Origin: Pseudisothecium myosuroides
Lineage: Eukaryota; Streptophyta; Bryopsida; Hypnales; Lembophyllaceae
Assembly: GCA_951799445.1 (NCBI GenBank)
Contig: OX637287.1
Span: forward strand, 1,488,001 to 1,552,000
Length of the DNA: 64,000 nt
Reading direction: 5' to 3'
The notes beneath the pieces are model-generated. The model was not told the DNA's origin. It made no database searches and saw only the letters and a list, made by a program, of their open reading frames with translations. This document shows, in pieces, positions 6,338-64,000 of this stretch (position 1 is its first letter; each line of letters opens with the position of its first letter). Position numbers and translations under genes: made by a program.

Positions 6338-7260
6338 TTAACCTCTAAAGTACCAAAGTCACCTTGGGGGACACTTGGGATTTTGGGCAAGCTCATGTGA
6401 CCTCACATTTTTACCTGATTTTTTGAAACTTTTTTAGAAGATAGGAAATCATATTGGCTTTTTAAAAATATAATTTTTTTTCAATCAGTGTCCGGGAGCA
6501 AAAGTCATGCCGCCCTAAGTCAAAAAAGCAATTTGCTGGGCAGAACAAAAAAAAATTTAATTGAGTTTTTTTAATTTTTTCTCAAAGATCATGTTTTTGT
6601 CTACATCTGAAGCCTTGATTCATTCTATTTAAACTACTAATGGGAAAGTTATGGACAATCTTGTTTTTCAGGCAATCTAAGCATCTTCTTCAAAAAACAA
6701 ATTGTCGAATTCATTTTTGAATGCAGTTTTCAAATTTTTTCAAATTTTTTATTTTAACAAGATTAAACTTATTTGCAAGAACAATCCCACCGTTGGGATT
6801 ATGTTGTTTTAATTCCATCTTAGAGCTATTAACAATTTAATTAGTGTTTCGTTCAATTTTGGACCTACTTCTATTCAACAATTTTTTTATATGTGAAAAA
6901 CAAGTTTTGATATTCTAAATCTTTTTTCTCAGACTCTCAACTCAAATATTCAATATAAAAAATTTTAACTTCATGGTCTGTAGTGCAAAAAAAATCCACA
7001 AATGGCCATCAAAGTCATCTGAAATTGCAGGCTATAAGTCAAAAAAAAAAAATTCCAACTTTGGATGGTAATATCTTCCAATCGCTACGGTCAAACTTCT
7101 TGAAATTTTTACCACATGATCTGAGACAAGTAAAGTACAAGATCCTATGGTTAGATTCTAAAATTTTATGTTTTTTAAAAATTTCTTGAGTGATCCCAGT
7201 AGAAATGGCAGTTTTTAGTGGTTCCGGAGCCAAAAAATGCCTTGATATTTTCGGGGTTAA
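6338..7260. mobile_element. TTAA-flanked piggyBac-like element (family 1, diverged)
   Basis: The ends are TTAACCTCTAAAGTACC and TTTTCGGGGTTAA, flanked by TTAA on both sides. The interior follows the family-1 plan in forward orientation. The ends have diverged more than in most copies, so this is probably an older insertion. Confidence 0.75.
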
Positions 7261-12563: not shown

Positions 12564-13480
12564 TTAACCCCTAAAGGCCCATGGCCTTTTTTCTGCCAAA
12601 AAACACTCAAAACTGCCATTTCTATAGCAAAAAGTACAAAAAAATTCAAATTGTTTTTTTTTCACATCTAACCGTAGGATCTTACACCTTATTGGTATGA
12701 GAATGTGTGGAAAAAATTTCAAAATTTTTAACCGCACAGATTGCAAGATATCTGCGTTTAAAGTGGAAAAATCAAGTTTTTCAGCACATTGCGGGACCAA
12801 ATTTTTTGACTTTAAACATTTTTAACTTAAAATTTTTGCACTACAACGTTTTGAGCTTTAAATCTTTATAGTGGAGAATTGAGTTGAGAGTCTAGGAAAA
12901 AAAAAAATTCAAAAAAACTTAATTATCATTCTTAAGAAAATTGTTAAGTAGAAGTAGGTACAAGATAGAAGGAAAATCTAAAATATTCATATATTTTAGA
13001 TGGAATTAAAATGCACTAATCCCAATGGTGAGATTTTTCTAGCAAGTAAACTAAACCATTCACAAAAAAAATTACAAAAATTGCATTCCGAAATGAATCC
13101 TACAAGTTATTTTTTTCAAGAAGATGCTCTAACTGCCCGAAAAACAAGAATGTCCATAACTTCCTCATAACAAATCCAAATGAAATGAATAAAAGCTTTC
13201 CAGATAGACAAAAATATAATCTATGAGAAAAAAAATATTTTAAAAAAAAATTCAAAATTTTGCAAATTTTTTTTGCTGCCCCCCGTCCCCACGCATTCCA
13301 AGAAATGGCATAACTTCTTGCTCAAAGGTCCGATTTCAATTTTTTTTTCTGCCACGTACCTCTCTCAATTCTTCATGTTCACAAAAAGTTTCAAAAAAAT
13401 CAGGAGAAAAATTCAGCAAAAAGGTACATGCCCGAAGACGCATTTGTCCCCCAAAGGGACAATGGGCTTTTAGGGGTTAA
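12564..13480. mobile_element. TTAA-flanked piggyBac-like element (family 1, reverse)
   Basis: The ends are TTAACCCCTAAAGGCCCA and TGGGCTTTTAGGGGTTAA. The 917-bp body is almost the same as the copy at 3709-4630. The terminal 'GGCCCA' differs from the 'GGACCA' variant of other copies and is mirrored at both ends, apart from one mismatch. Confidence 0.85.
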
Positions 13481-17485: not shown

Positions 17486-18875
17486 ATACCATTCAAAATA
17501 GCATTTTTGCATTCGCAAGGAAGGAAATTTCACACCTGCCAACTTTGACAGACTCCCGAGGGCTGAAAAATTACTTTTTTATCATGAAATTTTTGAAATA
17601 AGAACATCTTTATATTAATAAAATATATATCAAATTTTATGGTCAAAATATTCACAAAAAAAAAGATATTCAAAGTCTACCAACATGTGTAGCGGTGAGA
17701 AAATTTTCACTGTTGCCAATTTTGACACCCTCCCGAGGGCTGAATTTTTTTTTTTTACCATGAATTTTTTGTCATGAGATCATCTCTATGTTGATAATAT
17801 GTGTGCAAAATTTCAGGTTCAAAAGATTTACTCAAAAAAAGATATTTGAAATCTACCAACATGTGTAGTTGTGAGAAACAATTTCACTACTACCAACTTT
17901 GACACTCTCCCAAGGGTTGGATTTTTTTTATTTATCATAAATTTTTTACTACAGAATCATTTTTATGTGAATAACATGTGTGCCAAATTTCAAGGTCAAA
18001 AGATTTACCAAAAATAAGATATGCTAATTCTACCAACATGTGTAGATGTGAGAATGATTTTTTTAGCCCTTGGCATAGAGTGTCATTTTATTGGTAAATT
18101 TTCACATGGATGTAAAATGTCTTTCTCACAACTACACATGCTGGTAGAATTAGCATATTTTTTTTTGTAAGTCTTCTGACCTTGAAATTCTTCAAACTTT
18201 TTATCAATATAGATATGATCTCATGCCAAAAATTTCATGGTAAAATGTTTTTTTCCTGCCCTTGGGATAGTGTCAAAGTTGGCAGTAGTGAAATTTTTCT
18301 CTCAGCTATACACGTTGGCAAATTTTGAATATCTTTTTTGGTGTGAATCTTTTGAACTTGAAATTTGGCATACATGTTATTAACATAAGAATGATTTTTT
18401 AATAGAAATTTCATAGTAAATAAAAAAAAATTCAACCCTTGGGAGAGTGTCAAAGTTGGTAGTAGTGAAATTGTTTCTCACAACTATACATGTTGGTAGA
18501 TTTCAAATATCTTTTTTTGAGTAAATCTTTTGAACTTGAAATTTTGCACACATATTATCAACATAGAGATGATCTCATGACAAAAATTTCATGGTAAAAA
18601 AAAAAAATTCAGCCCTTGGGAGGGTGTCAAAATTGGCAACAGTGAAAATTTTCTCACTACTATACATGTTGGTAGACTTTGAATATCTTTTTTTTTGTGA
18701 ATATTTTGACCATGAAATTTGGTATGCATGTTATTAATATAAAGATTTTCTTGTTTTAAAAATTTCAAGGTAAAAAAATAATTTTTCAGCCCTCGGGAGG
18801 TTGGCAAAGTTGGCAAATATGAAATTTCCTTCTTTGCGAATGCAAAAAGGCCATTTTGAATGGTACCTTGTGATT
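17486..18875. repeat. 1.4-kb inverted array of about 176-bp units
   Basis: Forward units carry the anchor CAACATGTGTAG at 17681, 17857 and 18033 (spacing 176). Past a turning point near 18070-18115, inverted units carry the complement (CTACACATG/CTATACATG-type) near 18132, 18304, 18482 and 18659. The outer flanks also pair: 'cattcaaaatagcatttttgcattcgc' at about 17491 against its complement at about 18836-18864. Each unit also contains a 'tttgacactctcccaaggg' block. The unit length is not a multiple of three, so the open frames crossing it are not evidence of coding. Confidence 0.8.
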
Positions 18876-33731: not shown

Positions 33732-34715
33732 CATTGAATAGGGATATTAACCCCTAAAGGACCGTTTGTCTCCTCGGGGGACAATTTGGGTCTGGGTAGG
33801 TTCCTATTGTCTCAATTTGTAGTAAAAAATTTTGGAATTTTTTGAGGTTGTGTAGCTTTGTGAGAGCTTTGTGGATATATAATTTTTATATTATATTTTT
33901 GTGTATACATGAAGCTTTGATTGATTCAGTTTGGACTTGTGATGGAAAAGTTATGGACAATCTTAGTTTTTCAGGCAATCTAAGCATCTTCTTGAAAAAA
34001 TAACTAATAGGATTCATTTTTTAATGCAATTTTTACAATTTTCCAAAAAAAATTGTTAGACATGGTTAAAATTGCTTGCTAGAAAAATCTCACCGTTGGA
34101 ATTATTGTGTTTTAATTCCATCTTAAAGCTATTAATGGTTTTGTTTTTCCTTCATTCTTGAACCTACTTCTGGTTATCAATTTTTTGATAAGTTTTTTTT
34201 CCTGATTTTTGCCCCTAGATTCTCAACTCAAATATTCAACATAAAAAGTTAAAAAATCAAAATCAATAGTACAAAAATTTTAAGTTAAAAAGATTCAAAG
34301 CCAAAAATTCTAGTCAAGCAAGGTGTTAAAAAAACTTGTTTTCTTCACTTTGGATGCAAATATCTTGCAATCTATGTGGTCAAAGTTTTTGAAATTTCTC
34401 CCTTACATACTTATACTAGTCTAGTATAAGATCCTACGGTTAGATATGCAAAAAAAACAATTTTTAAAGTTTTTTGCTCTTTGCAATAGAAATGGCAGTT
34501 TCGAGTGTAGTTTGATGGAAAAAAGCCTCGATCCTTTAGGGGTTAAGGGGACCCATACTAATTAATCGACATTTCACACTATACAAATATCTACCTATCC
34601 TATACATCAATAGTTATTGAAGTGTCGATGGGTTGTACATCATGTTTCAAACATCTACAGTTTTCCAAGATAAATCCCTTTAATTTTTTGGTCCCCTTAA
34701 TATCCCTATTCAGTG
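33732..34715. mobile_element. TA-flanked Tc1/mariner-like MITE with a nested TTAA element
   Basis: The terminal repeats are CATTGAATAGGGATATTAA(GGGGACC), broken by the nested insertion, and at the other end GGTCCCCTTAATATCCCTAT-TCAGTG. Both sides are flanked by TA (33730-33731, 34716-34717). Without the inner element the MITE is about 185 bp. Confidence 0.75.
33747..34546. mobile_element. TTAA piggyBac-like element nested in a MITE terminal repeat
   Basis: The ends are TTAACCCCTAAAGGACCG and ATCCTTTAGGGGTTAA. The insertion used the TTAA inside the host MITE's own TIR (GATATTAAGGGG); the intact opposite TIR shows the pre-insertion sequence. Confidence 0.85.
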
Positions 34716-39010: not shown

Positions 39011-40787
39011 GAAGAGACGAGGGCAACGGTAGCAAAAATATCTAAGGCTCTCAAAGACCCAACAATGAAGTTTCCTCACATTAACCGTTTGGTTCATGCC
39101 TCGGTCCATTATGGAATTTTTGGATATATTTTCTTATATTTTTGTAAAAAAAAAATAGCTTAATTCCATCAAATTGGTCAAAAGGGAAGGATATCTTTTT
39201 TTGAAATTCAAGTATTATTTGGTATAAATGAGAAGAGATTTTGGCAAAACATTGCTTGGAGGTATTTTAAATATGGACTTTACAGCATTTCGACATTACA
39301 GTAGGTGCACCCATAATCAACATCTGAGCACATTTATTATTGCTTATAATTTGCCTCTTAAGGTTTTATTTTGAATTGTACAATCCAACAAAAAAATTTG
39401 GAACCATTTTCAAAAAAATTCTCTACTACTTTGGTGCTCAAAAGTAGTGTTTCTTTGTCAATTTTTTTTATTACTTTAACATACATACAGGTCACTGGAA
39501 TATGAATGATTGCAATCTTGGCACTTCTTAAAAATGCAAGAAAACAAACAAGATATAAAGCACAAAAGGGATTATTGTATAGTCCTTCTTCCAATTTGAA
39601 GGTAATGAGTGGTCCTCCTTGTAGGAGTATTGCTCAAAAACAAAATCCTATTTATCCACCTAACAATTTATAAGTTCAAATATACCAATAGTTAGATGAC
39701 AACACCTAAAATCAAATAAATGAGCACTTGAGCATAGTCCCCATCATTAAAATATCTAATGTCTAATTCAATCTTGTTGGAATTCAAATGGAGCTTTTAA
39801 TTCTCTTAGCATGCTTTTTAAAACAGTGCATGAATAAAAAATGAATTTCTTCAATTCTTAGACTCTCATAAATAGTCACTATTAATTTTTAGGCAAGAAT
39901 TTTTAGGGGTCATTGCTTTTACAAATGAGTTTCAATTAGGTGCAATTATAAAATACAATTCATTGCCTTGTAGAAAGTCAAAAGGGTGTTGTGTGATGCT
40001 CCTTTTGAATACGAGAAAATATTATTAACCTTAATCTCTAAGTGTGTAGTGATTGTCATCCATATTTATATCAAAAAATAGTTTTTTCACAGGAAGGTAT
40101 TAGAAACATCATTTAAATCAACAAAATGATTATATATCTTGAAGAATATTTAATTGTGCACCACTTTACAAAGTTTCATCGAGATCCAATGACATAAATC
40201 TCAAGATTATAATAATCAAAGTTGTCAGAAACTTACTAATGAATCATCCAAAACAAAACCAATTAAGGTCTTTAATCTTAAATTCTCTACAATAAAGTGT
40301 TAAAAATTATAAATTTCATTGGATATAAAGAAATGTGAAATGTGAACAAATAAAAAAACTTTTAAAGAATTTGGAGTCACAAAAGGCCTGAGATATTGAG
40401 TAAGAAGGCGCTTAGGTCCAAATTGCACCTACTTCTCTTTGGTATTTTTCCAAAAAAATTAAATCTTCTTTTAAAAACAATCAAAGTCCTACTTTAATGT
40501 AGAGATGTTTCTTTACTTTCAAAGAGTTTTCATATCATCTTTGAGGAACCTCTAGGTTTGCTTTTATTTGGCTAATAAAATACATAAATAGACACCAAAT
40601 ATCTATATAATAGGATAATGGGTAGGATTAATAAGTGCAAAAACGATCAAAAGCAATTGGTTCTATACGATTGTATTTGAGTCTTGAAATGATATGGAAA
40701 TGTCAAGGAGGTAATGCATGTAGCAATAAAAGATAGAAACCATATAGTATATTTATTTGATGATAGATATATGACTTGAAAGTTATC

Positions 40788-41719
40788 TTAACCCCTAAAG
40801 GACCGTATGTCCCCTCGGGGGACAATTTGGGTCCAGGTAGGTTCCTATTGTCTCAATTTGTAGTAAAAAATTTTGGAATTTTTTGAGGTTGTGTAGTTTT
40901 GCAAGAGCTTTGTAGATATATAATTTTTTATTTAAATCGGTGCTCAGGAGCAGAAATTATGGCACAATAAGCCAAAAACAGAGATTGGTGGGCAGCCAAA
41001 AAAAAATCACAAAAAATCAAAATTAAATTTTTAATTTTTTTTCCTGAAATATTATATATTTTTTTATACGTGAAGCTTTGATTCATTCAATTTGGACTTG
41101 TGATGGAAAAGTTATGGACAATCTTAGTTTTTCAGGCAATCTAAGCATCTTCTTGAAAAAATAACCTGTAGGATTCATTTTTGAATGCAATTTTTACAAT
41201 TTTCCAAAAAATATTGTTGGACATGGTTAAATTTGCTTGCTAGAACAATCTCACCATTGGGATTATTGTGTTTCAACTCCATCTTAGATTTATTAATGGT
41301 TTTGTCTTTCCTTCATTCTTGAACCTACTTTTGCTCAACAATTTTTAATGAGTGAAAATTAAGGGATTTTTTCCTGAATTTTTTTTCCTATATTCTCAAC
41401 TCATACATGCAACATAAAAAGTTTAAAAATCAAAATCATTAGTACAAAAAATTTAAGTTAAAAAGATTCAAAGCCAAAAAATCTAGTCATAGAAGGTGTA
41501 AAATTTTTTTTCTCTTCACTTTGGATGCAAATATTTTGCAATCCATGCGGTCAAAGTTTCTGAAATTTCTTCCATATGTACTTATACTAGTCTAGTATAA
41601 GATCCTACGGTTAGATATGCAAAAAAAACAATTTTTAAAGTTTTTTGCTCTTCGCAATAGAAATGGCAGTTTCAAGTGTTGTTTGATGGAAAAAAAAGCC
41701 TCGGTCCGTTAGGGGTTAA
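40788..41719. mobile_element. TTAA-flanked piggyBac-like element (family 1), empty site known
   Basis: The ends are TTAACCCCTAAAGGACCG and CGGTCCGTTAGGGGTTAA. Copy 2 of the duplication reads 'gttatcATAAttagttg' at about 59240, a single tetranucleotide with one substitution. Confidence 0.92.
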
Positions 41720-42044
41720 TTAGTTGTTGGTAGCTTTCAATGAAATTTTTTAATTGTGTCTAGTTAAACTTAATTGTACCTTTTAAAATATCCATCAGTG
41801 TACAAAACGGAGGAAGTACATCCAAGTGTAGTCACTCAATGATTTCTAATTTTTGGACAAAGTTTTGAATCAATTCATGTAAGGATCTTGTATTTGTGTA
41901 GCTGATGATTGAGGCATTCTCAAAGCCTAGTAATGTGGTGCTAGATTGTTATACATCTATAGATACCTCCACTAAGTATCATTATTTAAACTATAATTTT
42001 TCTACATTATGTGTAACATATAAACTTCAATTAATGATGTTCTT

Positions 42045-42985
42045 TTAACCCCTAAAGGACCATTGTCCCTACGGGGGACAAATGCGTTTTCGGGCAGGTA
42101 CCTACGGGCTGAAATTTTCTCCTGATTTTTTGAAACTTTTTTTGGAGGTAGAAAAATTGATTAGCTTCAAGGGAATATAATTTTTTTTACAATCGGTGCC
42201 CGGGAAAAAAAGTTATGACCATATAAGCTCAAAAACAGGCTACGGGGGGCAGCTCGGGCAGCAAAAAAAAAATGGACAAAAATTTGAATTTTTTTTTTTA
42301 ATATTTTTTTTCTCATAGGTTATATTTTTGGCTATCTGGAAAGCTTTGATTCATTTCATTTGACTTTGTTATGAGGAAGTTATGGACATTCTTGTTTTTC
42401 GGGCAGTTAGGGCATCTTCTTGGAAAAAATTACCTTAGGATTCATTTCTGAATGCAATTTTTCAAATTTTTCAATTTTCTTTTTTTTGCATGGTCTGATT
42501 TACTTGTTAGAACAATCCCACCATTGGGATTAGTGCATTTTAATTCCATCTAAAATATATGAATATTTTAGATTTTCCTTCTATCTCGTACCTACATCTA
42601 CTTAACAATTTTTTTAAGAATGATAATTAAGTTTTTTTTGAATTTTTTTTTTCCTAGACTCTCAACTCAATTCTCCACTACAAGCATTAAAAGCTCAGAA
42701 CTCTGTAGTGCAAAAATTTTAAGTTAAAAATGTTCAAAGTCAAAAAATCCAGTCCCGCAATGTGCTGAAAAACTTGTTTTTTCCACTTTAAACACAGATA
42801 TCTTGCAATCTATGCGGTCAAAAATTCTGAAATTTTTTCCACATTTTTTAATACTAGTTAGGTGTAAGATCCTACGGTTAGATGTGAAAAAAAAACAATT
42901 AAAATTTTTTTTAACTCTTTGCTACAGAAATGACAGTTTTCAGTGTTTTTTGGCAGAAAAAAGGCCTCGGTCCTTTAGGGGTTAA
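42045..42985. mobile_element. TTAA-flanked piggyBac-like element (family 1), empty site known
   Basis: The ends are TTAACCCCTAAAGGACCA and GGTCCTTTAGGGGTTAA. Copy 2 has an intact single TTAA ('gttcttTTAAtcgattt', about 59566). Confidence 0.95.
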
Positions 42986-43960
42986 CCCCTCACCGCCCAA
43001 GGCCGTTTTGGGTTCAAAAACATCACTGCTTTTGAAGTGATATAGATCTAAATGTCACTAAGCTATAGAGATCTTAACCATACAATCTTGTAGTGTACAT
43101 GTTGTAAATGATGTGTATCAAATTTGAAGTCATTTGACCGGATAGATTGCAAGATTGTAACGTTTTAGTGTTGAAAAAGGATGCTGAAATTTTCCTAAAA
43201 ACACATTTAGAGGCAAAATTTGATTTCTAAATCTAATCAAATGAAAAAACTTTAAACTATGAAGTGATTTAAAACCAGCATACAAACACATTGTTGAAAA
43301 AAAATATCATTCAATTGACTCAATGTGCTTGCAAAATAGCCTGCAAATGTCAAAAAATGAGGCAAGAAAAGTTGCAAAAAACACAGATGAGGTTGAACCT
43401 CCTTCTACTAAAATGCTTCTCAGTCATTCATAACTTCTTGGATTGATCTGAAATTTTAGCCACACAAACTAGACTAGTATGCGCAACTTTCTCAAATTTT
43501 TTTATTGGAAACGGACACTGTATGAAGAAGATACAAGCTGCCGAAGTTCATTGTAGTCCAAGAATGCCGGGGTTTTGAATTTCGAATTGCTCCCAAACAT
43601 TCAAAACAACTTGGATTGCTGTGAAAATTTTACCACAATAACTAGACTTCAAGGGGAATATAACCCAACAAATTTTATTGAAATCGAACAACGGATGAAG
43701 GAGATACAAGCCCCCAAAGTTGCAGCCATGAATTGCACTTTGGTGAATCAAATTGAACCTATGAACTTCGATTGGCTTCCAAAAAATCATTACCTCTTGG
43801 ATTGATTTGAAAATTTTACCACACAAACTAGAAGAGAAGGTGCAAATTTCTCAACAAGTTTTATTGAATTTTGACATTGGATGCAAAAGTTACAATACTT
43901 TGAATTGGACTTGAAACTGTGTGAGGACACTTTTGGGCCCCTTGGGCGGTGAGGGGTTAA
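42982..43960. mobile_element. TTAA element (family 2) abutting the previous one
   Basis: The termini are a perfect 17-bp inverted repeat CCCCTCACCGCCCAAGG inside TTAA. It shares the TTAA at 42982-42985 with its neighbour. The interior matches 46528-47504. Confidence 0.93.
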
Positions 43961-44269
43961 TCGATTTTTAGTAACAAATCATCATTTCTTGGGTTTCATT
44001 TGACCTTTATTTCTACTAGTGATTGCAATGAAGACTATGAGGATAGTGATGCAAACCAAATTGCCAATACACTAATATAAGGTTCATATTGCTCAGCGGT
44101 AGTCCTGAATTTAGAAGGTAACTTCTAGATCAGAAGCTCGGAATGAACATCATTAGCTTCATCCTTTTCATCTGACATCTCTCACTTCTTACACCATCTT
44201 GCATGTTTCGCACGCTTCACACACTTCTTACACCCCACACACTCTTTATACTTCTTACACTTCACATCT

Positions 44270-44435
44270 ATGGGCAATTTCGTTAAAATGGCGAAATGTT
44301 TTTAAAATGGCATGAAAACAGTTCAGAATGGCTCGCAGAATGGCCATCCTGAAATCTATACCATTCCTAGATGGTGAAAATGGCACACTGTCAAAGTGGC
44401 ACTTGGAATACCGCCATTTTAACGAAATTGCCCAT
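44270..44435. mobile_element. 166-bp MITE with 4-5-bp target duplication
   Basis: Terminal inverted repeats are ATGGGCAATTTCGTTAAAAT and its complement. Flanking ATCT (or ATCTA) is duplicated. Copy 2 has the empty site 'cacatctaaaaaacctc' (about 59850). Superfamily not assigned. Confidence 0.88.
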
Positions 44436-45411
44436 ATCTAAAAAACCTCTTAAATTTAGCTCCATCACTTTCTTCTCTAAAGCCCTTTTTAAAGTGGTTT
44501 TCCACATATAACTTATTCCTAAAGCCAACTTCCCAAAATGCTACATACATTTGGCTTAAAGTCCACTCTTGGCTTTTAGTACAACCAAATACTTAATACA
44601 CAAATATCTAAAGACCTTTATTTATATCCAAATTATTCGTTAAGACGTTCTAGTAAAATGATAAAAACCATGTACTTGAATACTGATGAATAAATCTAGT
44701 ACTTGTACCTGCTCATTACATTGAGCCTCCACTTTGTACACTTAGCTACTAATGGGTGTGAAATATTCCACACCATCTACTATGGAGCCAAGGCAATGAT
44801 AGTGCATGCTATTGAATGTCATGTAGGAGCTTGTAGTTTTCCTTTTAATTTTCTTTTGCTAAAAAAAAGCTTCTAAAGTCATTATTTGCCTAGAGCTAGA
44901 GGCTTTAATAAATGGTTTTTGAAGTAGCATGAAACCTAAGAAATGGTATCATTGTGACATGTGCTCCCTATAAAATAAAACAGCCAATTGCAGTCAAAAC
45001 TAGGAGTTTGTCTTCATGCCATTGCTAAATTTTTTAATTTTTTTCCTTACATAAAGACAAGTGTGAGAAATAGATGGAGCAGTTGAAATTATATTTTTTT
45101 TGACAAAGTATGAATTAGCTATGAATTTTTGAAGGTCCAATCCCAAAAGAATCTCTAGACCACTCCATAACCAACGAAAATTGTATTCATAATGCTCACC
45201 TTACTCACTCTTAAAGCAATCACAATAGTTTCTAATGTGAAAGGCTTTAAAAAAGTCACTTTCTACAATGATTTACACAAGAAAAAGTTAGGTGTTTCTA
45301 ATGAGGTTACTAATCACTCTATTAGTGTCAGGTGAGACATTAATTATGACCCAAAATCTCACAAATTGAAAATAACCACCATGGGGTCATTCCCTACGTG
45401 TCCATCATGGA

Positions 45412-45975
45412 CTCGGGGGGGTCACTTAGAGTGTCCATTAGAAAACACGTGCGAACAAAACTTTGAACCCCCTATATTATGTCCTAAAATTTAAATAAAA
45501 TGAAATAAAAAAAATATGACTAGATTTTCCTACTTCAAAAGTTTATGTTTTGAATTATTGATATTTTTATTTGTTAATGATAATTAGTTACAAATTTTTG
45601 AAGTAATTAGATACACTGTACAACTGAAAAATAACTTTCACACTCCTATATTATATCCTAAAAAATTGTCTAAAAAATGAACAAAAAATTCCTAAAAATA
45701 GCTCTCTATTGAGAGTTCATTTTGAGTTGAGTATTGATGGAATGGTCATCTAAATGTGATCTCTATAAATATTTGAGTTGAAAAACATGCCGTTTTAGGC
45801 CATTTTCAACCTCTTGTACAAATCATTTCAACTATTATTTTAGTTTGAAATTTTGGCAATAGAAACCTATAGTCATTATTAAGCAACCCTCAAAATTTTA
45901 AGTTGAAATTATAGTTAATTAGAAACCACTTGTTCGCACGTGGTTTGTAGTAAAATACTAGGTGCCCCCCTCGAG
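45412..45975. mobile_element. hAT-like element with 8-bp target duplication
   Basis: The ends are CTCGGGGGGGTCACTTAG and the complement of CTCGAGGGGGGCACCTAG. ATCATGGA flanks both sides (45404-45411, 45976-45983). Copy 2 has the empty site 'tccatcatgggtcatttgacc' (about 60820). An 8-bp duplication fits the hAT superfamily. Non-autonomous. Confidence 0.85.
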
Positions 45976-46011
45976 ATCATGGATCATTTGACCATGATGG
46001 GCTGTTTTACC

Positions 46012-46392
46012 TTATAATGAGTGTTTCAAATAACAACGCACTTGGAATTGTTGCTTGCAGCTCAAGCACTTGAAGCAGGGCTGCAAGATCGATATTCTTC
46101 TTGTTATCATATCATATTTGAAGGGCATGTTGTCAGCCATGCCGCAACAATGGCTCTCTCGTAGCAAGCCCTTCAGTTCTGGATTTCTGGGGGTCCTCAT
46201 TCTGCTTCTTGGCATAGGTGGCCAGCTAGCCTTGCGAACAGCTATGGGAGCCCAAGGTGAAGAGTTTTTAAATTCGCAATTGCCGCATTGGTACCGTGGT
46301 TGGATCCGCTTTCCATTGTCATAAAATTTGAATATGTTCTCAATGGATACGAAATCGCTGTGGTAGCAACGCGTGCAATGTTGTGCCATCAT
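46012..46392 (-). CDS. Short Cys-rich ORF, Dof-like zinc-finger features
   Basis: A 126-aa open frame with no introns called. The first half has C-x2-C (HCTRC) and, 26 residues later, C-x2-C in KFYDNGKRIQPRYQCGNC. This resembles the Dof finger, where KFCYYNNY...QPRYFCKxC is diagnostic, but Dof has a 21-residue spacer. A second, weaker block near the C-terminus (ILQPCFKCLSCKQQF) again recalls QPR-xFCKxC. The Dof basic C-terminal half (RRYWTKGG) is missing, so DNA binding is doubtful. It lies inside the segmental duplication. The second copy (60852-61234) is frameshifted by a 4-nt difference. It may be a transposon-carried or decaying zinc-ribbon gene. Functional status is uncertain. Confidence 0.4.
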   Translation of the reverse strand: MMAQHCTRCYHSDFVSIENIFKFYDNGKRIQPRYQCGNCEFKNSSPWAPIAVRKASWPPMPRSRMRTPRNPELKGLLRESHCCGMADNMPFKYDMITRRISILQPCFKCLSCKQQFQVRCYLKHSL

Positions 46393-46527
46393 ATGATGGA
46401 ATGCCAGTTAGTCTTTATGGAAAGCGGAGGAAGCTAAGTTAGGAGGGATGCAGGAGGTAGCGGACTAATAAGTTGAGGCAAGAAGAAGAGCTGATGAGCA
46501 GAAGAAGTGAAGAATTGCCTGGGGCTC

Positions 46528-47504
46528 TTAACCCCAAAGTGACATTCAATTTCTGGGGTTCAAAAACATCATTGCTTTGAAGCTTTATGGATCTAAATGT
46601 CTTCAAGTTATACAAATCTCAACCGTACAATCTTGTAGTGTACATGTTGTAGATGACATGTACAAAATTTGAAGTCATTTGGCCACATAGATTGCAAGAT
46701 CATAATGTTTTAGTGTTGAAAATGGATGCTGAAATTTTCCCAAAAACACATTTGGAGGTGAAGTTTGATTTCAAAACCTACTCAAATGAAAAAACTTTAC
46801 ACTACAAAAAGATTCAAAACTAGTATACAATCACATTGGTGAAAAAAAACTTCACTCAACTGAATCATTGTGTCTACAAAACGACTTTGAAATGCCAAAA
46901 TCAGCAAGAAAAATTGCAAAAAACACATCTAAAGCTGAATCTCCTTCTACTAGAATGCTTCTCAGTCACTCATTAATTTTTGGATTAACATGAAATTTTA
47001 GCCACAAAAACTAGACTAGTATGTGCAACTTTTCCTAAAAGAATTATTGAAAATGGACTGTGTATGAAGAAGAAACAAGCCGCTAAAGTTCACTACACTC
47101 CAAAAATGGCAGGATTTTGAACTTCGAATTGCTCCCAAACATTCAAAACAACTTGGATTGACATGAAAACTTTACCACAATAATTATACTTCAAAGGGAA
47201 CAAAATCCAAAATTTTTAATTGAAAAATGAGCAATGGATGAAGGAGATACAAGGCCCCGAAGTTGCAGCCCTAAAATGCAGTTTGGTGAACTCAAATTGA
47301 AGTGTTGAACTTCAATTGGCTTCCAAAAAATCAATACATTTTGGATTGATCTGAAAATTTTACCATACAAACTAGAAGGGAGAACTCAACTTTACCAACA
47401 AGTCTTATTGAATTTGAACCTTGAATGCAAAAGTTACAGCACTTTGAACTGGACTTGAAACTCTGTGAGAACACTTTCTGTCCTCTTTGTCACTTTGGGG
47501 TTAA
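46528..47504. mobile_element. TTAA element (family 2) with CCCCAAAGTGACA ends
   Basis: The terminal inverted repeat CCCCAAAGTGACA is flanked by TTAA. The interior is clearly the same family as 42982-43960 ('acaatcttgtagtgtacatgttg' and following), yet the termini differ completely past CCCC. In the other duplication copy, the same target carries a different element. Confidence 0.92.
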
Positions 47505-47640
47505 GGCTTCGTATTCATATCTGGAAGGGAGGGGAGAGGGGACCACTGAACTGGCAGTTAACTGACATTTCATTTTATTTTTATTGGCAATCAATTCCCT
47601 CCTCGGCGATGTCTGCTTCGATTGACTGCGTGACGGAGGT

Positions 47641-48324
47641 GTCTGTTGCTCGACCGAACCTGATTGAGATTTAGCGTGGCCAGGCACTGATCGAACCTGA
47701 CCAAATGCTAATGGTTTGATATGTCGCAAGGTGTGCGTGACGGAGTAAATTTTACTGTTAAAGAAACTTGTTGCTCATTCTGGTGTTGATTACGTCGTCA
47801 AAACTAGTTCATTTGCTGCACGATCTGTCCTCAAGTGTTCGACACATTACCCCCTGCCTTCAGCTGCACTTTTCTATCGAGTTTTCTATGGTTTTAGTGG
47901 TACAACCATTATTCGGGCTGAATGAGGACGGGCTCTAGTAGAAGAACCAGGGTCTAACCAGCATGAGGAGCTGCTAGGAAACTTCATAAGTGGGACTGAT
48001 CGACGAACTCACGCTATATCGTAGACATGAAGAACAGTACAACAAGCGAAAGAGATCGACAACTCGATCCGTGAGATCATTGTAGTACAACAAATGGCAA
48101 GTCTCAGTATTGATAAGTTCAAGAACTGAACTGCAGCATCATCGCGGCCTCTCTAATACTTCCCCAGTATTACATCTTGCTTTAAGTACATCTGGAGAAA
48201 ATCTCAGACCTGCGCAGACCTGCGTCAATCAGTGATGACTGCATACGAACAGTTCCAGATGACCATAAAAGATGGTGCTACAGGCAAAAACCAAGAGAAT
48301 TATCTCCATCAACCCTAGCTTGCC
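47641..48324. other. 3' flank of the aldo-keto reductase gene
   Basis: No feature recognised. Probably includes the 3' untranslated region on the minus strand. Confidence 0.4.
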
Positions 48325-54750: not shown

Positions 54751-56461
54751 TTTCGATTTGTTCCGAAAGAATCCATTTGGAGGAGAGTACATTGTGTTTG
54801 CAAGTCTGGAGGAATGTATTCACTTTGCTACCAATTTCAAGTTCAAGGATGATGCCACTGAGTACCTTCAGACTATCATGCCCTCCTCATGTGAGGTCAA
54901 CATTTCTTACCTCTTCCTTTATCCTAATTCTTAGGTAACAAATAAATTAGTAATGTCTGTTTGGTTGTCACAATGACAATTACAGTGAGCCAATTCAATG
55001 CTCAAAGTCCATTTTTGGTAATTTTCTTATCTCTTGTTTTGTTGGCTCTAGTCTAGTGAAACCACCATTGTGTATACCCTCCTTGAGGGCTTTCTAAAGG
55101 GACCAACTTTGTGGAGATCTTTGGAATGTTGATGAAACGAATTAATACCTACCTTTATGTTTAGATACAAGTTGTTACATGCTTTTGACATTGTGCTCAC
55201 ATTCAAGTTAGTTTTGTAGAGAATGCTGATCCATGATGGTTCTAAGGTTTAGTGGGATGCTCATTACGATATTACTGGGATGTTGTCTCGTTTTTGTGCT
55301 AGAGTATGATATCCTGCAAAGGCACCTGTAAGATTAGGGTTTTGAATTCTGGAGATGTTTTCAAACCTGCAATGACATGAGTGACTTCGAGAAATTTTTA
55401 CAAGACAAATTCTATGTTTATTTAACCCCTAAAAGCCCGTTGTCCCTTCGAGGGACAAATGCGTTTTCGGGCAGGTACCTACGGGCTGAAATTGTGTTCT
55501 GATTTTTTGAAATTTTTTTTGGAGATAGAAAAACTGATAAGCTTCGTGGGAATATAATTTTTTTCTCAATCGGTGCCCGGGAAAAAAAGTTATGACCAAA
55601 TAAGCTCAAAACAGGGGACGGGGGGCAGCCCGGGCAGCAAAAAAAAAATGGACAAAAATTTGAATTTTTTTTTTTAATATTTTTTTTCTCATAGATTATA
55701 TTTTTGTCTATCTAGAAAGCTTTTATTCATTTCATTTGGATATGTTATGAGAAAGTTATGGACATTCTTGTTTTTCGGGCAGTTTGAGCATCTTCTTGAA
55801 AAAAATAACTGTAGGACTCATTTCTGAATGCAATTTTTCAAATTTTTCAAAATTTTTTTTTTGGCATGGTTTAGTTTACTTGCTAGAACAATCTCACCAT
55901 TGTGATTAGTGCATTTTAATTCCATCTAAGAGATATTAATATTTTAGGTTTTCCTTCTATCTCATACCTACTTCTACTTAACAATTTTTTTAAGGATGAA
56001 AATTAAGTTTTTTTGAGTTTCTTTTTTTTTCCTAGACTCTCAACTCAATTCTCTACTATAAAGATTTAAAGCTCAAAACGCTGTAGTGCAAAAATTTTAA
56101 GTTAAAAATGTTTAAAGACAAAAAATCTGGTCCCGCAATGTGTTGAAAAACTTGTTTTTTCCACTTTAAACGCAGATATCTTGCAATCTGTGCGGTCAAA
56201 AATTCTGAAATTTTTTCCACACATTCTCATACCAATTAGGTGTAAGATCCTACGGTTAGATGTGGAAAAAAAACAATTTGAATTTTTTTTAACTTTTTGC
56301 TATAGAAATGGCAGTTTTCAGTGTTTTTTGGCAGAAAAAAGACCTTGGGCCTTTGGGGGTTAAAAAGCGTTGATTGTTTTGACGTTGAAATATGTGCCGT
56401 GCCGGAGGGCTTTGTAGTGTTCCCGCGCATTCCTTTGGTGCGTGTTGAAGGACCTCTATTG
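54751..56461 (+). pseudogene. NAPRT: Nicotinate phosphoribosyltransferase fragment split by a TTAA element
   Basis: Two exon-like blocks are seen. Block 1 (54751-54895) reads FDLFRKNPFGGEYIVFAS and 'LEECIHFATNFKF', ending MPSSCE at a GT. Block 2 is 55404-55425 plus 56364-56461. Joined across the insertion it reads [17 protein letters not shown], then '[19 protein letters not shown]', ending at a GT donor. These are consecutive N-terminal segments of plant NAPRT, which makes nicotinate mononucleotide from nicotinate in NAD salvage. The usual FDLYFRKNPFGG has lost one residue. A 942-bp TTAA element (55422-56363) interrupts block 2 within YLKS. The upstream start exon and all later catalytic exons are missing, and the acceptor before block 2 does not fit the phase cleanly. 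I call it a pseudogene fragment. Confidence 0.8.
55422..56363. mobile_element. TTAA piggyBac-like element inserted in a NAPRT exon
   Basis: The ends are TTAACCCCTAAAAGCCCG and GGGCCTTTGGGGGTTAA. Removing the element and one TTAA restores the frame TAT-TTA-AAA-AGC (YLKS), which proves the exact target. Family 1, forward. Confidence 0.95.
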
Positions 56462-57430: not shown

Positions 57431-60400
57431 ATTAAGTTCAAAAAAAATAAAAATCATTACACTTAGAAGAGACGAGAACAACGGTAGCAAAAATATCTAA
57501 GGCGCTCAAAGACCCAACAATGAAGTTTCCTCACATTAACCCTTTGGTTCATGCCTCGGTCCATTATGGAATTTTTGGATATATTTTCTTATATTTTTGT
57601 AAAAAAAAAATAGCTTAATTCCATTGAATTGGTCAAAAGGGAAGGGTATCTTTTTGAAATTCAAGTATTATTTGGTATAAATGAGAAGAGATTTCGGCAA
57701 AACATTGCTTGGAGGTATTCTAAATATGGACTTTAGAGCACTTAGACATTCCAGTAAGTGCACCCGTAATCAACATCTGAGCACATTTATTATTGCCTAC
57801 ATTTTGCCCTCTTAAGGTTTTATTTTGAATTGCACAATCCAACCATTTTTTTTGGAACCATTTTCAAAAAAAAATTCTCTTCTACTTTGGTGCTCAAAAG
57901 TAGTGTTTCTTTGTCAATTTTTTTTATTACTTTAACATACATACAGGTCACTGGAATATGAATGATTGCAATCTTGGCACTTCTTAAAAATGCAAGAAAA
58001 CAAACAAGATATAAAGTACAAAGGGATTATTGTATAGTCCTTCTTCCAATTTGAAGGTAATGAGTGGTCCTCCTTGTAGGAGTATTGCTCAAAAACAAAA
58101 TCCTATTTATCCACCTAACAATTTATAAGTTCAAATATACCAATAGTTAGATGACAACACCTAAAATCAAATAAATTAGCACTTGAGCACGGCTCCTATC
58201 ATTAAAATATCTAATGTCTAATTCAATCTTGTTGGAATTCAAATGGAGCTTTTAATTCTCTTAGCATGCTTTTTTGAATAGTGCATGGATAAAAAATGAA
58301 TTTCTTCAATTCTTAGACTCTCATAAATAGTCACTATTAATTTTTAGGCAAGAATTTTTAGGGGTCATTGCTTTTACAAATGAGTTTCAATTAGGTGCAA
58401 TTATAAAATACAATTCATTGCCTTGTAGAAAGTCAAAAGGGTGTTGTGTGATGCTCCTTTTGAATACGAGAAAATATTATTAACCTTAATCTCTAAATGT
58501 GTAGTGATTGTCATCCATATTTATATCAAAAAATAGTTTTTTCACAGGAAGGTATTGGAAACATCATTTAAATCAACAAAATGATTATATATCTTGAAGA
58601 GTATTTAATTGTGCACCACTTTACAAAGTTTCATCGAGATCCAATGACATAAATCTCAAGATTATAATAATCAAAGTTGTCAGAAATTTACTAATGAATC
58701 ATCCAAAACAAAACCAATTAAGGTCTTTAATCTTAAATTCTCTACAGTAAAGTGTTAAAAATTATAAATTTCATTGGATATAAAGAAATGTGAAATGTGA
58801 ACAAATAAAAAAACTTTTAAAGAATTTGGAGTCACAAAAGGCCTGAGATATTGAGTAAGAAGGCGCTTAGGTCCAAATTGCACCTACTTCTCTTTGGTAT
58901 TTTTCCAAAAAAATTAAATCTTCTTTTAAAAACAATCAAAGTCCTACTTTAATGTAGAGATGTTTCTTTGCTTTCAAAGAGTTTTCATATCATCTTTGAG
59001 GAACCTTTAGGTTTGCTTTTATTTGGCTAATAAAATACATAAATAGACACCAAATATCTATATAATAGGATAATGGGTAGGATTAATAAGTGCAAAAGCG
59101 ATAAAAAAAAACAATTGGTTCTATATGTATTTGAATCTTGAAATGATATGGAAATGTTAAGGAGGTAATGCATGTAGCAATAAAAGATAGAAACCATATA
59201 GTATATTTATTTGATGATAGATATATGACTTGAAAGTTATCATAATTAGTTGTTAGCTTTCAAAGAAACTTTTTAATTGTGCCTAGTTAAACTTAATTGT
59301 ACCTTTTAAAATATCCATCAGTGTAAGAAACGGAGGAAGTGCATCCAAGTGTAGTCACTCAATGATTTCTAATTTTTGGACAAAGTTTTGAACCAATTCA
59401 TGTGAGGATCTTGTATTTGTGCAGCTGTTGATCAAGGCATTCTCAAAGCCTAGTATGTGGTGCTAGATTGTTATACATCTATAGATACCTCCACTAAGTA
59501 TTATTATTTAAATTATAATTTTTCTACATTATGTGTAATATATAAACTTCAATCGATGATGTTCTTTTAATCGATTTTTAGTAACAAATAATTATTTCTT
59601 TGGTTTCATTTGACCTTTATTTCTACTAGTGATTGCAATGAAGACTATAAGGATAGTGATGCAAATCAAATTGCCAATACACTAATATAAGGTTTGTATT
59701 GCTCAGCGGTAGTCCTGACTTTAGAAGGTAACTTCTAGATCAGAAGCTCTAAATGAGTATCATTAGCTTCATCATTTTCATCTGACATCTCTCACTTCGC
59801 ACGCTTCACACTTTTTACATCCAATAGACTCTTTATACTTCTTACACTTCACATCTAAAAAACCTCTTAAATTTAGTTGCATCACTTTCTTCTCTGAAGC
59901 CTTTTGTAAAGTGGTTTTCCACATATAACTTATTCCTAAAGCCAACTTTTCAAAATGCTAAATACATTTGGCTTAAAGTCCACTCTTGGCTTTTAGTACA
60001 ACTAAATGCTGAATACACAAATATCTAAAGACCTTTATTTATCCAAATTCTTCGTTAAGACGTTCTAATAAAATGATAAAAACCATGTACTTGAATACTG
60101 ATGAATAAATCTAGTACTTGTACCTGCTCATTACATTGAGCCTCCACTTCGTACACTTAGCTATTGATGGGTGTGAAATATTCCACACCATCTACTATGG
60201 AGCCAAGGCAATGATAGTGCATGCTATTGAATGTCATGTAGGAGCTTGTAGTTTTCCTTTTAATTTTCTTTTGCTAAAAGAAAGCTTCAGTAAAGTCATT
60301 ATTTGCCTAGAGCTAGAGGCTCTGATAAATTATTTTTGAAATAGCATGAAACCTAAGAAATGGTATCATTGTGACATGTGCTCCCTATAGAATAAGACAA

Positions 60401-60851
60401 CCAATTGCAATTAGAATTAGGAGTTTGTCTTCATGCCATTGCTAAATTTTTTTAATTTTTTTCTTCACATAAAGACAAGTGTGAGAAATAGATGGAGCAC
60501 TTGAAATTATATTTTTTTGACAAAGTATGAATAAGCTATGAATTTTTGAAGGTTCAATCTCAAAAGAATCTCTAGACCACTCCATAACCAACAAAAATTG
60601 TATCCATAATGCTCACCTAACTCACTCTTGAAGCAATTTCAATAGTTTCTAATGTGGAAGGCTTTAAAAAAGTCACTTTCTACAATGATTTACACAGGAA
60701 AAAGTTAGGTGTTTCTAATGAGGTTACTAATCACTCCATTAGTGTCAGGTGAGACATTGATTGTGGCCCAAAATCTCACAAATTGAAAATAACCATCATG
60801 GGGTCATTCCCTACGTGTCCATCATGGGTCATTTGACCATGATGGGCTGTT

Positions 60852-61234
60852 TTACCTTGTAATGAGTTGTTTCAAATAACAACGCACTTGGAATTGTTGC
60901 TTGCAGCTCAAGCACTTGAAGCAGGGCTGCAAGATCGATATTCTTCTTGTTATCATATCATATTTGAAGGGCATGTTGTCAGCCATGCCGCAACAATGGC
61001 ACTCTCGTAGCAAGCCCTTCAGTTCTGGACTTCTGGAGGTCCTCATTCCGCTTCTTGGCATAGGTGGCCAGCCTTGCGAACAGCTATGGGAGCCCAAGGT
61101 GAAGAGTTTTTAAATTCACAATTGTCACATTGGTACTGTGGTTGGATCCGCTTTCCATTGTCATAAAATTTGAATATGTTCTCAACGGATACAAAATCGC
61201 TGTGGTAGCAACGCATGCAGTGTTGCGCCATCAT
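60852..61234 (-). pseudogene. Frameshifted copy of the Dof-like Cys-rich ORF
   Basis: Same as 46012-46392 except for a 4-nt difference (GGCCAGCC against GGCCAGCTAGCC) near 61070. The frame is therefore split into a 63-aa N-terminal and an 81-aa C-terminal reading. Either this copy lost 4 nt or the other gained it. Confidence 0.55.
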
Positions 61235-61370
61235 ATGATGGAGTGCCAGTTAGTCTTTATGGAAAGCGGAGGAAGCTAAGTTAGGAGGGATGCAGGAGGT
61301 AGCGGACTAATAAGTTGAGGCAAGAAGAAGAGGTGATGAGCAGAAGAAGTGAAGAATTGCCTGGGACTCT

Positions 61371-63862
61371 TAAATTAGGCCCGGTTTATACTTGGGGCCG
61401 GATTGAAGGCCGGCCGGAACTCTCCAAGTTTGAACCAATAGGAGCATTCAATTCCTTCAAATCCGACCCAAGGGCTTTATACTTGGGGCCGGATGGAACT
61501 ACAACTCATCCTATGTGTCACCTTAGGTGGCATGGTTTTGGCGCCAAACCATCCGGCCCCAAGGAAGAAATCGGGACGAGGTTTTGGGTTGCCCGAACTC
61601 CCATCTAGGGTCGGATTGGGCTCCTCCGTTGGATGATACAAATCTCCACCGTCTATTAATGCAAGGTCATTTATTTTAATTTTTTTGTTACATGCTTTTT
61701 ATTTTTGTTCACATGAAACTTCCTCCCATCTGCATTCCTGAAATTTTGGGGCTTTGCTGTCAATTCCAGGCTTGCTCAAGTTAGCAAGCCATACAGGTAC
61801 AACATTATGTCAACAAGTATTATGTCAAGCATATAAGTTATGCAAGCAAATTATCATTTTGTTATTTAAGTTCAGTTCAGTTAAGGTTTAACTTAAGTTA
61901 TCATTCTTGTTTACCAATACTGTTTATTATTTTATAGAACGGAGTTGATTTGTTTTTGGAGAACGGAGTTGATTATTTATTTTATTTTATGTTATTTTAT
62001 TTTGACTTTGATTTGGGTTTTGACTTTGAGTACCACATTTTAACTAGTGTAAATTAAAAACAAGGAATTCAAGCAATAAGGCCACTTTCTAACAGGGAAT
62101 TCAAAATAATACATAATCTATGTTTGCTTGGTTTATTCATGTGATTATTTTCAAACCCGTATAGTGACAAGTCCAAAATTATTTTATTGCAAGAAGAAAA
62201 ATGAAAAGTTTCAACAAAAGTAAAAAAATTCACTTTTCCATTTGAAAATTGAAAATAGGAAAAATAGGAGTAGAAAGGAAAAGTTAAAAAAAAAAAATCT
62301 CTTTTCTATTTTTGAAGTAGAATAAATAGGAAGAAGAAGGAAAAAAGGAAAAATAAATAAACAATTTTTTTTTTTTTTTTTCAAATAGGAAAGAAAGGAA
62401 GAGAAAAAAAAAACATGCATGTTTTTATAATTTTTTTTAATTGAGCATTGAAAAAATCTAAGAACACATAATTGGAGATTGGGCCCTAGAATCCGGCCCA
62501 AGGGCTTTACATTATCGCAGGACATTAAATCGTCCTATCCTTTGTGGGCCCCAAGGTGAACTGTACATGTCAGGCCAATGGGACCCGGTCGAGATCGCGG
62601 GTCCCAGGGCACAGCTGCAGGACCATGCCCCCCGACGGAACTGCAGGACCGTAATACAATTTTATTGTTCTTCGGGTCCTGCACAGAACAGACATGACGA
62701 CAATTTTAGGATTTTAGGCGGCGGTTTTTAGGGTTTAGGGCGGCGGATTAGGGGATAGGATGGCAAGTTAGTATTTAGGGTGGGTTTTTTTTTACGTTCT
62801 GCATAATTGAGTCCTACTACATATCCCACATGGATTGTTGTATCTCCTACCACTCCTCATGTATATAAAGAACTTGTCTTTTCAATTCTAAATGCAACTC
62901 ATAAATGGTTTTTGAAGAAAAGTAAAAAGACTGTCAAAATAACTATTTAATGTCTTGTGAAAAGACTTTCAAAATGACTATTTAATGTCCTGTAAAGCAA
63001 TCTAACAACATCAACAAAACTTTTTTAACTTGTACAAAAACAAGATTTGTATGTGGCACAATTGAGACAACATTTTTCAAAGTTCTTGTAGAATGTATAA
63101 GCAGCAGGACTCCACCAAATAAATTTTTTGATAACTCTAAAATAGTTGAAGTGTTTTTTCTGTGCAAGACGTGTAAAACATTGAAATTGCCGTGAAGAAT
63201 AAGGTTAGGAGACAAACGTGGGTGAAAAATGTTGTTTCAATTGTGCCACATACAAATCTTGTTTTTGTACAAGTTAAAAAAGTTTTGTTGATGTTGTCTT
63301 GCTTTACAAGACATTATATAGTCATTTTGAAAGTCTTTTTACCTTTCTTCAAAAACAATTTATGAGTTGCATTTAGAATTGAAAAGACAAATTCTTTATA
63401 TACATGAGGAGTGGTAGAAGATACAACAATCCATGTGGGATATGTAGTAGGACTCAATTATGCAGGACGTAAAAAAAAACCCACCCTAAACACTAACTTG
63501 CCATCCTATCCCCTAATCCGCCGCCCTAAACCCTAAAAACCGCCGCCCTAAACTCTAAAAACCGCCGCCTAAAACCCTAAAATCACTGTCAAGTTTGTTC
63601 TGTGTAGGACCCGAAGAACAATAAAATTGTATTGCAGTCCTGCAGTTCCGTCGGGGGGCATGGTCCTGCAGCTGTGCCCTGAGACCCGTGATCTCGACCG
63701 GGTCCCATTGGCCTGACATGTACGGTTCACCTTAGGGCCCACAAAAGATGGGACGATTTAACGTCCTGCTACATTATCTGGGGTCAGATGGAAGAATTGG
63801 GGCCGGATTGAGGGTCGGATTGAAGGCAAATCCGACCCAGGCCCAATATAAAGCCGGCCTAA
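61371..63862. mobile_element. TIR element (TTAGGCC ends), possibly PIF/Harbinger-like, carrying a nested foldback
   Basis: The left end is TTAGGCCCGGTTTATACTTG and the right end is the complement of TTAGGCCGGCTTTATATTGG. The flanks suggest a TAA duplication: the pre-insertion site was CTCTTAAGGCT, judged from copy 1. Without the nested element it is about 1.23 kb. An internal GGGCTTTATACTTGGGGCCG near 61468 repeats the terminal motif. A/T-rich low complexity at 62210-62430. No transposase. Confidence 0.7.
62517..63769. mobile_element. Mutator-like foldback element with 9-bp target duplication
   Basis: The termini GCAGGACATTAAATCG and CGATTTAACGTCCTGC begin inverted arms of about 560 bp (62517 to about 63079, and about 63222-63769). 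TACATTATC is duplicated on both sides (62508-62516, 63770-63778). Very long TIRs plus a 9-bp duplication are the signature of Mutator-like elements. The arms contain telomere-like TTTAGGGTTTAGGG tracts. No coding sequence. Confidence 0.88.
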
Positions 63863-64000
63863 GGCTCTGTATTCATATCTGGGAGGGAGGGGAGAGGGGA
63901 CCACTGAACTGGCTGTTAACTGGCACTTCATTTTATTTTTGTTGGCAACCAATACCTCCTCGGCAATGTCTGCTCCGATTGACTGCGTGACGGAGGTGTC

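Follow-up and report, generated by a model that had tools for sequence, protein, structure and literature searches.

Non-autonomous piggyBac elements in a moss genome, their transposase-bearing relatives and a candidate second gene

Introduction

Animal genetics relies on piggyBac as its workhorse TTAA transposon, and the usual piggyBac element has one gene, the transposase (which is not a defining property). We know of no accessory protein in the superfamily besides that of the viral composite Teratorn. Two-gene elements do exist in PIF/Harbinger, which has a 3-bp target and a different transposase. Here we analyze a stretch of 64,000 nucleotides from the moss Pseudisothecium myosuroides (contig OX637287.1, positions 1,488,001 to 1,552,000; the window), about 18% of which is spanned by some 13 elements of TTAA type, several of the boundaries being BLAST limits and not read ends. 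It is very probable that these are non-autonomous, internally deleted piggyBac elements. They would have entered TTAA sites by a cut-and-paste mechanism, the DDD transposase of autonomous relatives of 5-6 kb in the same moss genome would move them in trans, and excision would be scarless.

The moss elements have in common with the piggyBac of Trichoplusia ni (structure 6x67) and with piggyBat (9c0f) the TTAA target and the CCC...GGG ends. Their transposases are likewise DDD, may have a comparable C-terminal cysteine-rich region and are predicted to have the same fold in the catalytic part. The transposase-bearing moss elements are longer, at 5.0-5.9 kb versus 2.47 kb for piggyBac (PMC10140906; this and the other papers are cited for excerpts of their text). 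The piggyBac families of bees have, as in the moss, TTAA, repeats of about 14 bp and a DDD transposase, with elements of 2.23-3.52 kb and proteins of about 580 amino acids, and the excerpt mentions no second gene (PMC10140906).

piggyBac is said to occur in plants (PMC10140906, PMC8086355, PMC10813416), is listed among the superfamilies present in all groups studied (PMC4438587) and among those of angiosperm miniature inverted-repeat transposable elements (PMC10004981), and has 1230 hits covering 122 kb in a fern (PMC6890710) and one hit of 75 bp in Stipa (PMC8319324). Whereas such plant entries consist, in the excerpts, of a name or small counts (PMC10004981, PMC6890710, PMC8319324), the moss has genes for the transposase, ends that match and copies that are almost identical. 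The original prediction, made from the window alone, held that piggyBac-type families at this density are, as far as is known, not a described feature of land plants. That has to be narrowed: the presence of piggyBac in plants is already known, and what is new, as far as we have found, is its abundance here, together with the open recent copies and a second reading frame. Descriptions of piggyBac families in a moss were not found in the open-licence literature, a scope that takes in few subscription papers, and in a moss genome paper the passage matching piggyBac has only "piggybacking" as a word (PMC10619864).

Results

Occupied and empty sites in a segmental duplication

The two copies of a segmental duplication in the window (Table 1) are 91.5-96.5% identical over their aligned pieces, plus one 64-bp piece at 89%. 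Copy 1 carries four elements, E1 to E4, all non-coding, the transposase being known from the long partners only. Their inverted repeats run to 17-21 bp counted from the TTAA, and the ends of E1 match at 17 of 18 bases, with one mismatch in the inverted repeat. The TTAA at 42982-42985 is common to E2 and E3.

The two copies had been predicted to differ by four elements, and for E1, E2 and E3 they do. When the 50/60-base flanks of E2+E3 are joined, they align to copy 2 without internal gap, which bears out the proposed arrangement of TTAA-element-TTAA-element-TTAA against one TTAA in copy 2. The single ATAA expected at the E1 site was likewise recovered by joined-flank alignment, at 59242. We thus have clean occupied/empty comparisons at two sites, for three elements. 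For E4 the claim was that the target at 46528 is also defined. Its flanks do match copy 2, but the site there is filled by another insertion of 2486 bp, which lies between two TAA triplets at the same CTCTTAAGGCT target. E4 is therefore left without an empty control, and we have rejected its site as empty-site proof.

As a separate observation, this same TTAA has been hit by two independent insertions, one in each copy of the duplication. Another concerns the interiors of E3 and E4, which are 83% identical (43010-43933 vs. 46556-47477) and end in different terminal repeats, as though through an exchange of ends or their rapid divergence.

Table 1. Features of the window, with coordinates counted from its first nucleotide
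Feature	Position	Strand	Evidence or remark
Related element	6338..7260	.	Both ends match complete transposase-bearing element P3
Related element, 917 bp	12564..13480	.	Self-BLAST; TTAA-pair scan
Related element, 800 bp	33747..34546	.	Self-BLAST; TTAA-pair scan
Segmental duplication, copy 1	39011..47643	+	Self-BLAST of window
E1, non-autonomous piggyBac element, TTAACCCCTAAAGGACC family, 932 bp	40788..41719	.	TTAA at both ends
E2, TTAACCCCTAAAGGACC family like E1, 941 bp	42045..42985	.	17-bp perfect inverted repeats including TTAA
E3, non-autonomous, TTAACCCCTCACCGCCCA family, 979 bp	42982..43960	.	21-bp perfect inverted repeats including TTAA
E4, non-autonomous, TTAACCCCAAAGTGACA ends, 977 bp	46528..47504	.	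17-bp perfect inverted repeats including TTAA
Related element, 942 bp, 90% identical to E2	55422..56363	.	Self-BLAST; TTAA-pair scan
Segmental duplication, copy 2	57466..64000	+	Self-BLAST; continues beyond window end
E1 empty site, one ATAA (copy 2)	59242..59245	+	Joined-flank alignment
E2+E3 empty site, one TTAA (copy 2)	59567..59570	+	Joined-flank alignment
Different insertion at E4 target (copy 2)	61374..63859	+	TAA-flanked; junctions read

TTAA-marked ends in the window and in the genome

The window has 16 TTAA-bounded pairs in which 14 or more of 16 end bases match, a number that includes overlapping pairs and two non-CCC pairs (CCC stands at both ends in 10), while 20 dinucleotide shuffles give 0-4 each. 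Across the genome (388 Mb in 222 contigs), the exact end CCCCTAAAGGACC occurs in 7203 + 7066 = 14,269 copies, compared with 4 + 2 = 6 for the pattern read backwards. An exact TTAA precedes it, giving TTAACCCCTAAAGGACC, in 6438 + 6279 = 12,717 of these (89.1%; 0 in the backward control). The exact end of the E3 family is found in 250 copies (control 0), 229 of them with an exact TTAA (91.6%; control 0). These genome-wide counts take in long and short elements alike.

Transposase-bearing partner elements

The genome contains at least 116 piggyBac transposase domains (PF13843; 116 scored of 899 candidates), all above the curated cut-off, and the same search of 14 control genomes gave no match. 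We could delimit eight long elements, of 5.0-5.9 kb, each bounded on either side by TTAA and by repeats that match each other. Among the eight segments joined around transposase genes, seven (5011-5887 bp) start and end with TTAA, and their end repeats agree at 13-19 of 20 bases. P3 is a complete element of 5626 bp with TTAACCCCTAAAGGACCAA at both ends, repeats that match at 19 of 20 bases, and a 758-codon open frame with a DDE domain. The left ends of the related P1 and P2 were not reached, and that of P4 is probable.

Short inverted repeats starting CCC are present in E1-E4 and in the eight long elements. The TTAACCCCTAAAGGACC repeat is the end of E1 and E2, and a terminal sequence is common to E1, E2, the 6338 and 55422 elements and P1-P4. 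The right end of E2 is 76% identical to P1 over 220 columns and its left end 76% identical to P4 over 159, and the 6338 element matches P3 at 86% over 97 bp and 77% over 306 columns. We also read 0.6 kb downstream of 20 transposase genes (19 outside the eight segments, plus L027), and found the exact TTAACCCCTAAAGGACC end in 8 of these regions, whose elements have their termini in common with E1 and E2, and another TTAACCCC end in 6.

The original prediction took exact TTAA duplication with CCC/GGG ends as characteristic of piggyBac and proposed looking for a piggyBac transposase gene bounded by matching ends. The eight delimited elements answer to that proposal, and with PF13843 transposases inside elements with the same ends the assignment holds. 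The two outcomes that it said would overturn it did not occur, as exact TTAA stands on 89-92% of ends in two families, and the partners encode a piggyBac DDD transposase and not one of another class.

Apart from this, a single TTAA at locus L015 (near 147-150) joins a transposase-bearing element to another end of TTAACCCTTAAAGGAC type, which is also the arrangement of E2 and E3. Such back-to-back insertion may be common.

The transposase protein

The 1091-codon protein of one family, D, has PF13843 at residues 618-988, and its only relatives in the PDB at E ≤0.001 are piggyBat and piggyBac. Transposase frames of the D family and of a second one, A, have 1056-1091 codons, versus 594 amino acids in piggyBac, and many moss elements add an upstream reading frame. 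The four catalytic-site aspartates are kept in all nine element frames. The C-termini are rich in cysteine and histidine in most frames (that of L014 stops earlier), and no Pfam zinc-ribbon match was found for the D protein. For a metagenomic relative, P0001 (47% identical), the model predicts the catalytic part well and most of the N-terminal 400 residues poorly, and the predicted fold finds 6x67 and 9c0f as its first matches.

Recent movement

Six D copies, each on a contig of its own, align over 2765-2776 bp with 0-3 mismatches, one pair having a gap as well, and their flanks before the TTAA differ. Over 4116 bp, five A copies show 0-3 mismatches and at most 2 gap bases. The left boundary could be read too in one pair of each family, A and D, and the flanks there are unrelated. 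Not all copies are fully open, since in one A copy a two-base difference shortens the open frame. Near-identical copies in different flanks indicate very recent movement, and transposition would still be occurring in the present day.

A reading frame upstream of the transposase

Many of these elements have a further open reading frame (ORF1) upstream of the transposase frame (ORF2). A hidden Markov model of ORF1 matches all eight joined segments and none of the four P-type segments (P1-P4), so the family matching E1 and E2 may be without ORF1. A genome search with the D-family ORF1 gives at least 150 matches (150 scored of 309 candidates). For at least 48 of the 116 transposase matches one lies upstream, on the same strand and at a distance of 1.5-3.5 kb, and among the matches listed none lies downstream, or on the opposite strand, within 6 kb of a transposase match.

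At 14 of 15 distinct ORF1 loci (a set that leaves out five further copies of the D element), an M..KEAAR-like frame in +1 phase overlaps ORF1; L092 is without such a frame. The phase between ORF1 and transposase over all 48 pairs is +1 in 23, +2 in 13 and 0 in 12. Of the 22 pairs whose open frames reach 850 codons or more, 14 show +1, 5 show 0 and 3 show +2; all 12 pairs that reach 1030 codons show +1, nine of those twelve being copies of two families.

The first 104 codons of ORF1 are under purifying selection: the ratio of nonsynonymous to synonymous differences per site (pN/pS) has a median of 0.34 and a range of 0.19-0.46 (36 pairs from 9 loci, with synonymous differences near saturation). 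The ORF1 tail stays open longer than under synonymous shuffles of ORF2 in five families (0/5000 to 0.008). In this comparison, as in that of the reading phase across five families, the start of the L016 transposase was placed a codon too early but in the correct frame. Because these families had been noticed for their long ORF1, and the tail over the overlap, in nine related loci, evolves without separate constraint on its amino acids (median pN/pS 1.19), we claim selection for the first 104 codons only.

Four public proteins match ORF1, one of them 67% identical to the A-family ORF1. Searches with ORF1 found no family in Pfam (best E 0.022, in one of six queries) and no match in the PDB (best E 0.26). 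The AlphaFold model of ORF1 (P0017 with three relatives) was unusable (mean predicted local distance difference test score 43). Simple leaky scanning is a doubtful route from ORF1 to ORF2, as there are 4-7 ATGs between them in five families.

Discussion

Could another kind of transposon have left these TTAA duplications? Kolobok is another superfamily that duplicates TTAA, and the duplication alone cannot separate it from piggyBac. What decides is the content of the partner elements: between these ends they carry PF13843 with the aspartates of piggyBac, and in the D protein, P0001 and P0002 PF13843 is the only Pfam family over the cut-off (no Kolobok-specific model having been searched). For the CCCCTAAAGGACC family Kolobok is thus contradicted; we have rejected it as the source of the duplications, and consider it highly improbable for the elements as a whole. 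An animal or fungal contaminant is contradicted as well, and extremely improbable. It would fit with piggyBac being best known from animals and with the nearest named transposases being animal (22-34% identity), but the window sits on a 55 Mb contig, every one of contigs C1-C11 carries PF13843 matches, and a thioredoxin-like protein in the window has as its closest named relatives those of Ceratodon purpureus (71%) and Physcomitrium patens (66%), followed by Sphagnum (55-58%). Several observations do weigh against the elements being piggyBac with partners in the same genome. The empty site of E1 in copy 2 is ATAA rather than TTAA, and an exact TTAA is absent from about 8-11% of exact ends, which would reflect later mutation. 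The left end of L016, the eighth joined segment, was not recognised, and the end repeats of L014 and L023 match at only 13 and 14 of 20 bases. A piggyBac end was not found in 6 of the 20 downstream regions, although one of the six, L069, starts beyond the end of L027. Finally, E3 resembles the transposase-bearing L015 and L026 in the terminal repeat only, and for E4 no close transposase-bearing partner was found, the nearest end being in L068.

As for ORF1, we think it somewhat probable that it encodes a second protein of the element. The main competing view, that ORF1 is no separate gene and forms the start of a single long transposase, as its first exon or in a shifted frame, seems to us possible and rather less probable. 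ORF1 lies immediately 5′ of the transposase on the same strand, the transposase frame starts inside it, introns are not visible to the methods used, and the coordinate phase is mixed over all 48 pairs, all of which would suit a single gene. But in nine of nine related loci an ATG belonging to the transposase frame itself stands at ORF1 nucleotide 317, with an A at -3, conservation of that frame starts at this ATG, and the +1 relation is seen again in 14 of 15 ORF1 loci and in five families. We lean toward a moss piggyBac lineage with two overlapping genes (an undescribed ORF1, and a transposase with a long N-terminal extension whose +1 frame starts at a fixed point inside ORF1) that is still transposing and is the source of thousands of short elements.

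PIF/Harbinger and Teratorn elements also encode a protein besides the transposase, as the moss elements would with ORF1. If ORF1 is a true second gene it would be, to our knowledge, the first piggyBac accessory protein apart from Teratorn. Teratorn itself is a piggyBac-herpesvirus composite, and unlike the moss elements it is 180 kb long and viral (PMC10175614). The near-identical open families would give a plant-native TTAA transposon for tagging, and would serve the study of how plants silence or tolerate piggyBac.

Other features of the window

The copy-2 insertion at the E4 target has the ends ATTAGGCCCGG...CCGGCC and is Harbinger-like by target length alone. Inside it, at 62517-63769, lies an inverted pair 90% identical over 468 columns, and enclosed by this pair, at 63025-63277, there is a TTAA-bounded pair of 253 bp with perfect 16-base ends, TTAACTTGTACAAAAA, which is not of the CCC type. 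Elsewhere, at 17522-18865, direct and inverted repeats that are 77-90% identical form a dense cluster unlike the TTAA elements.

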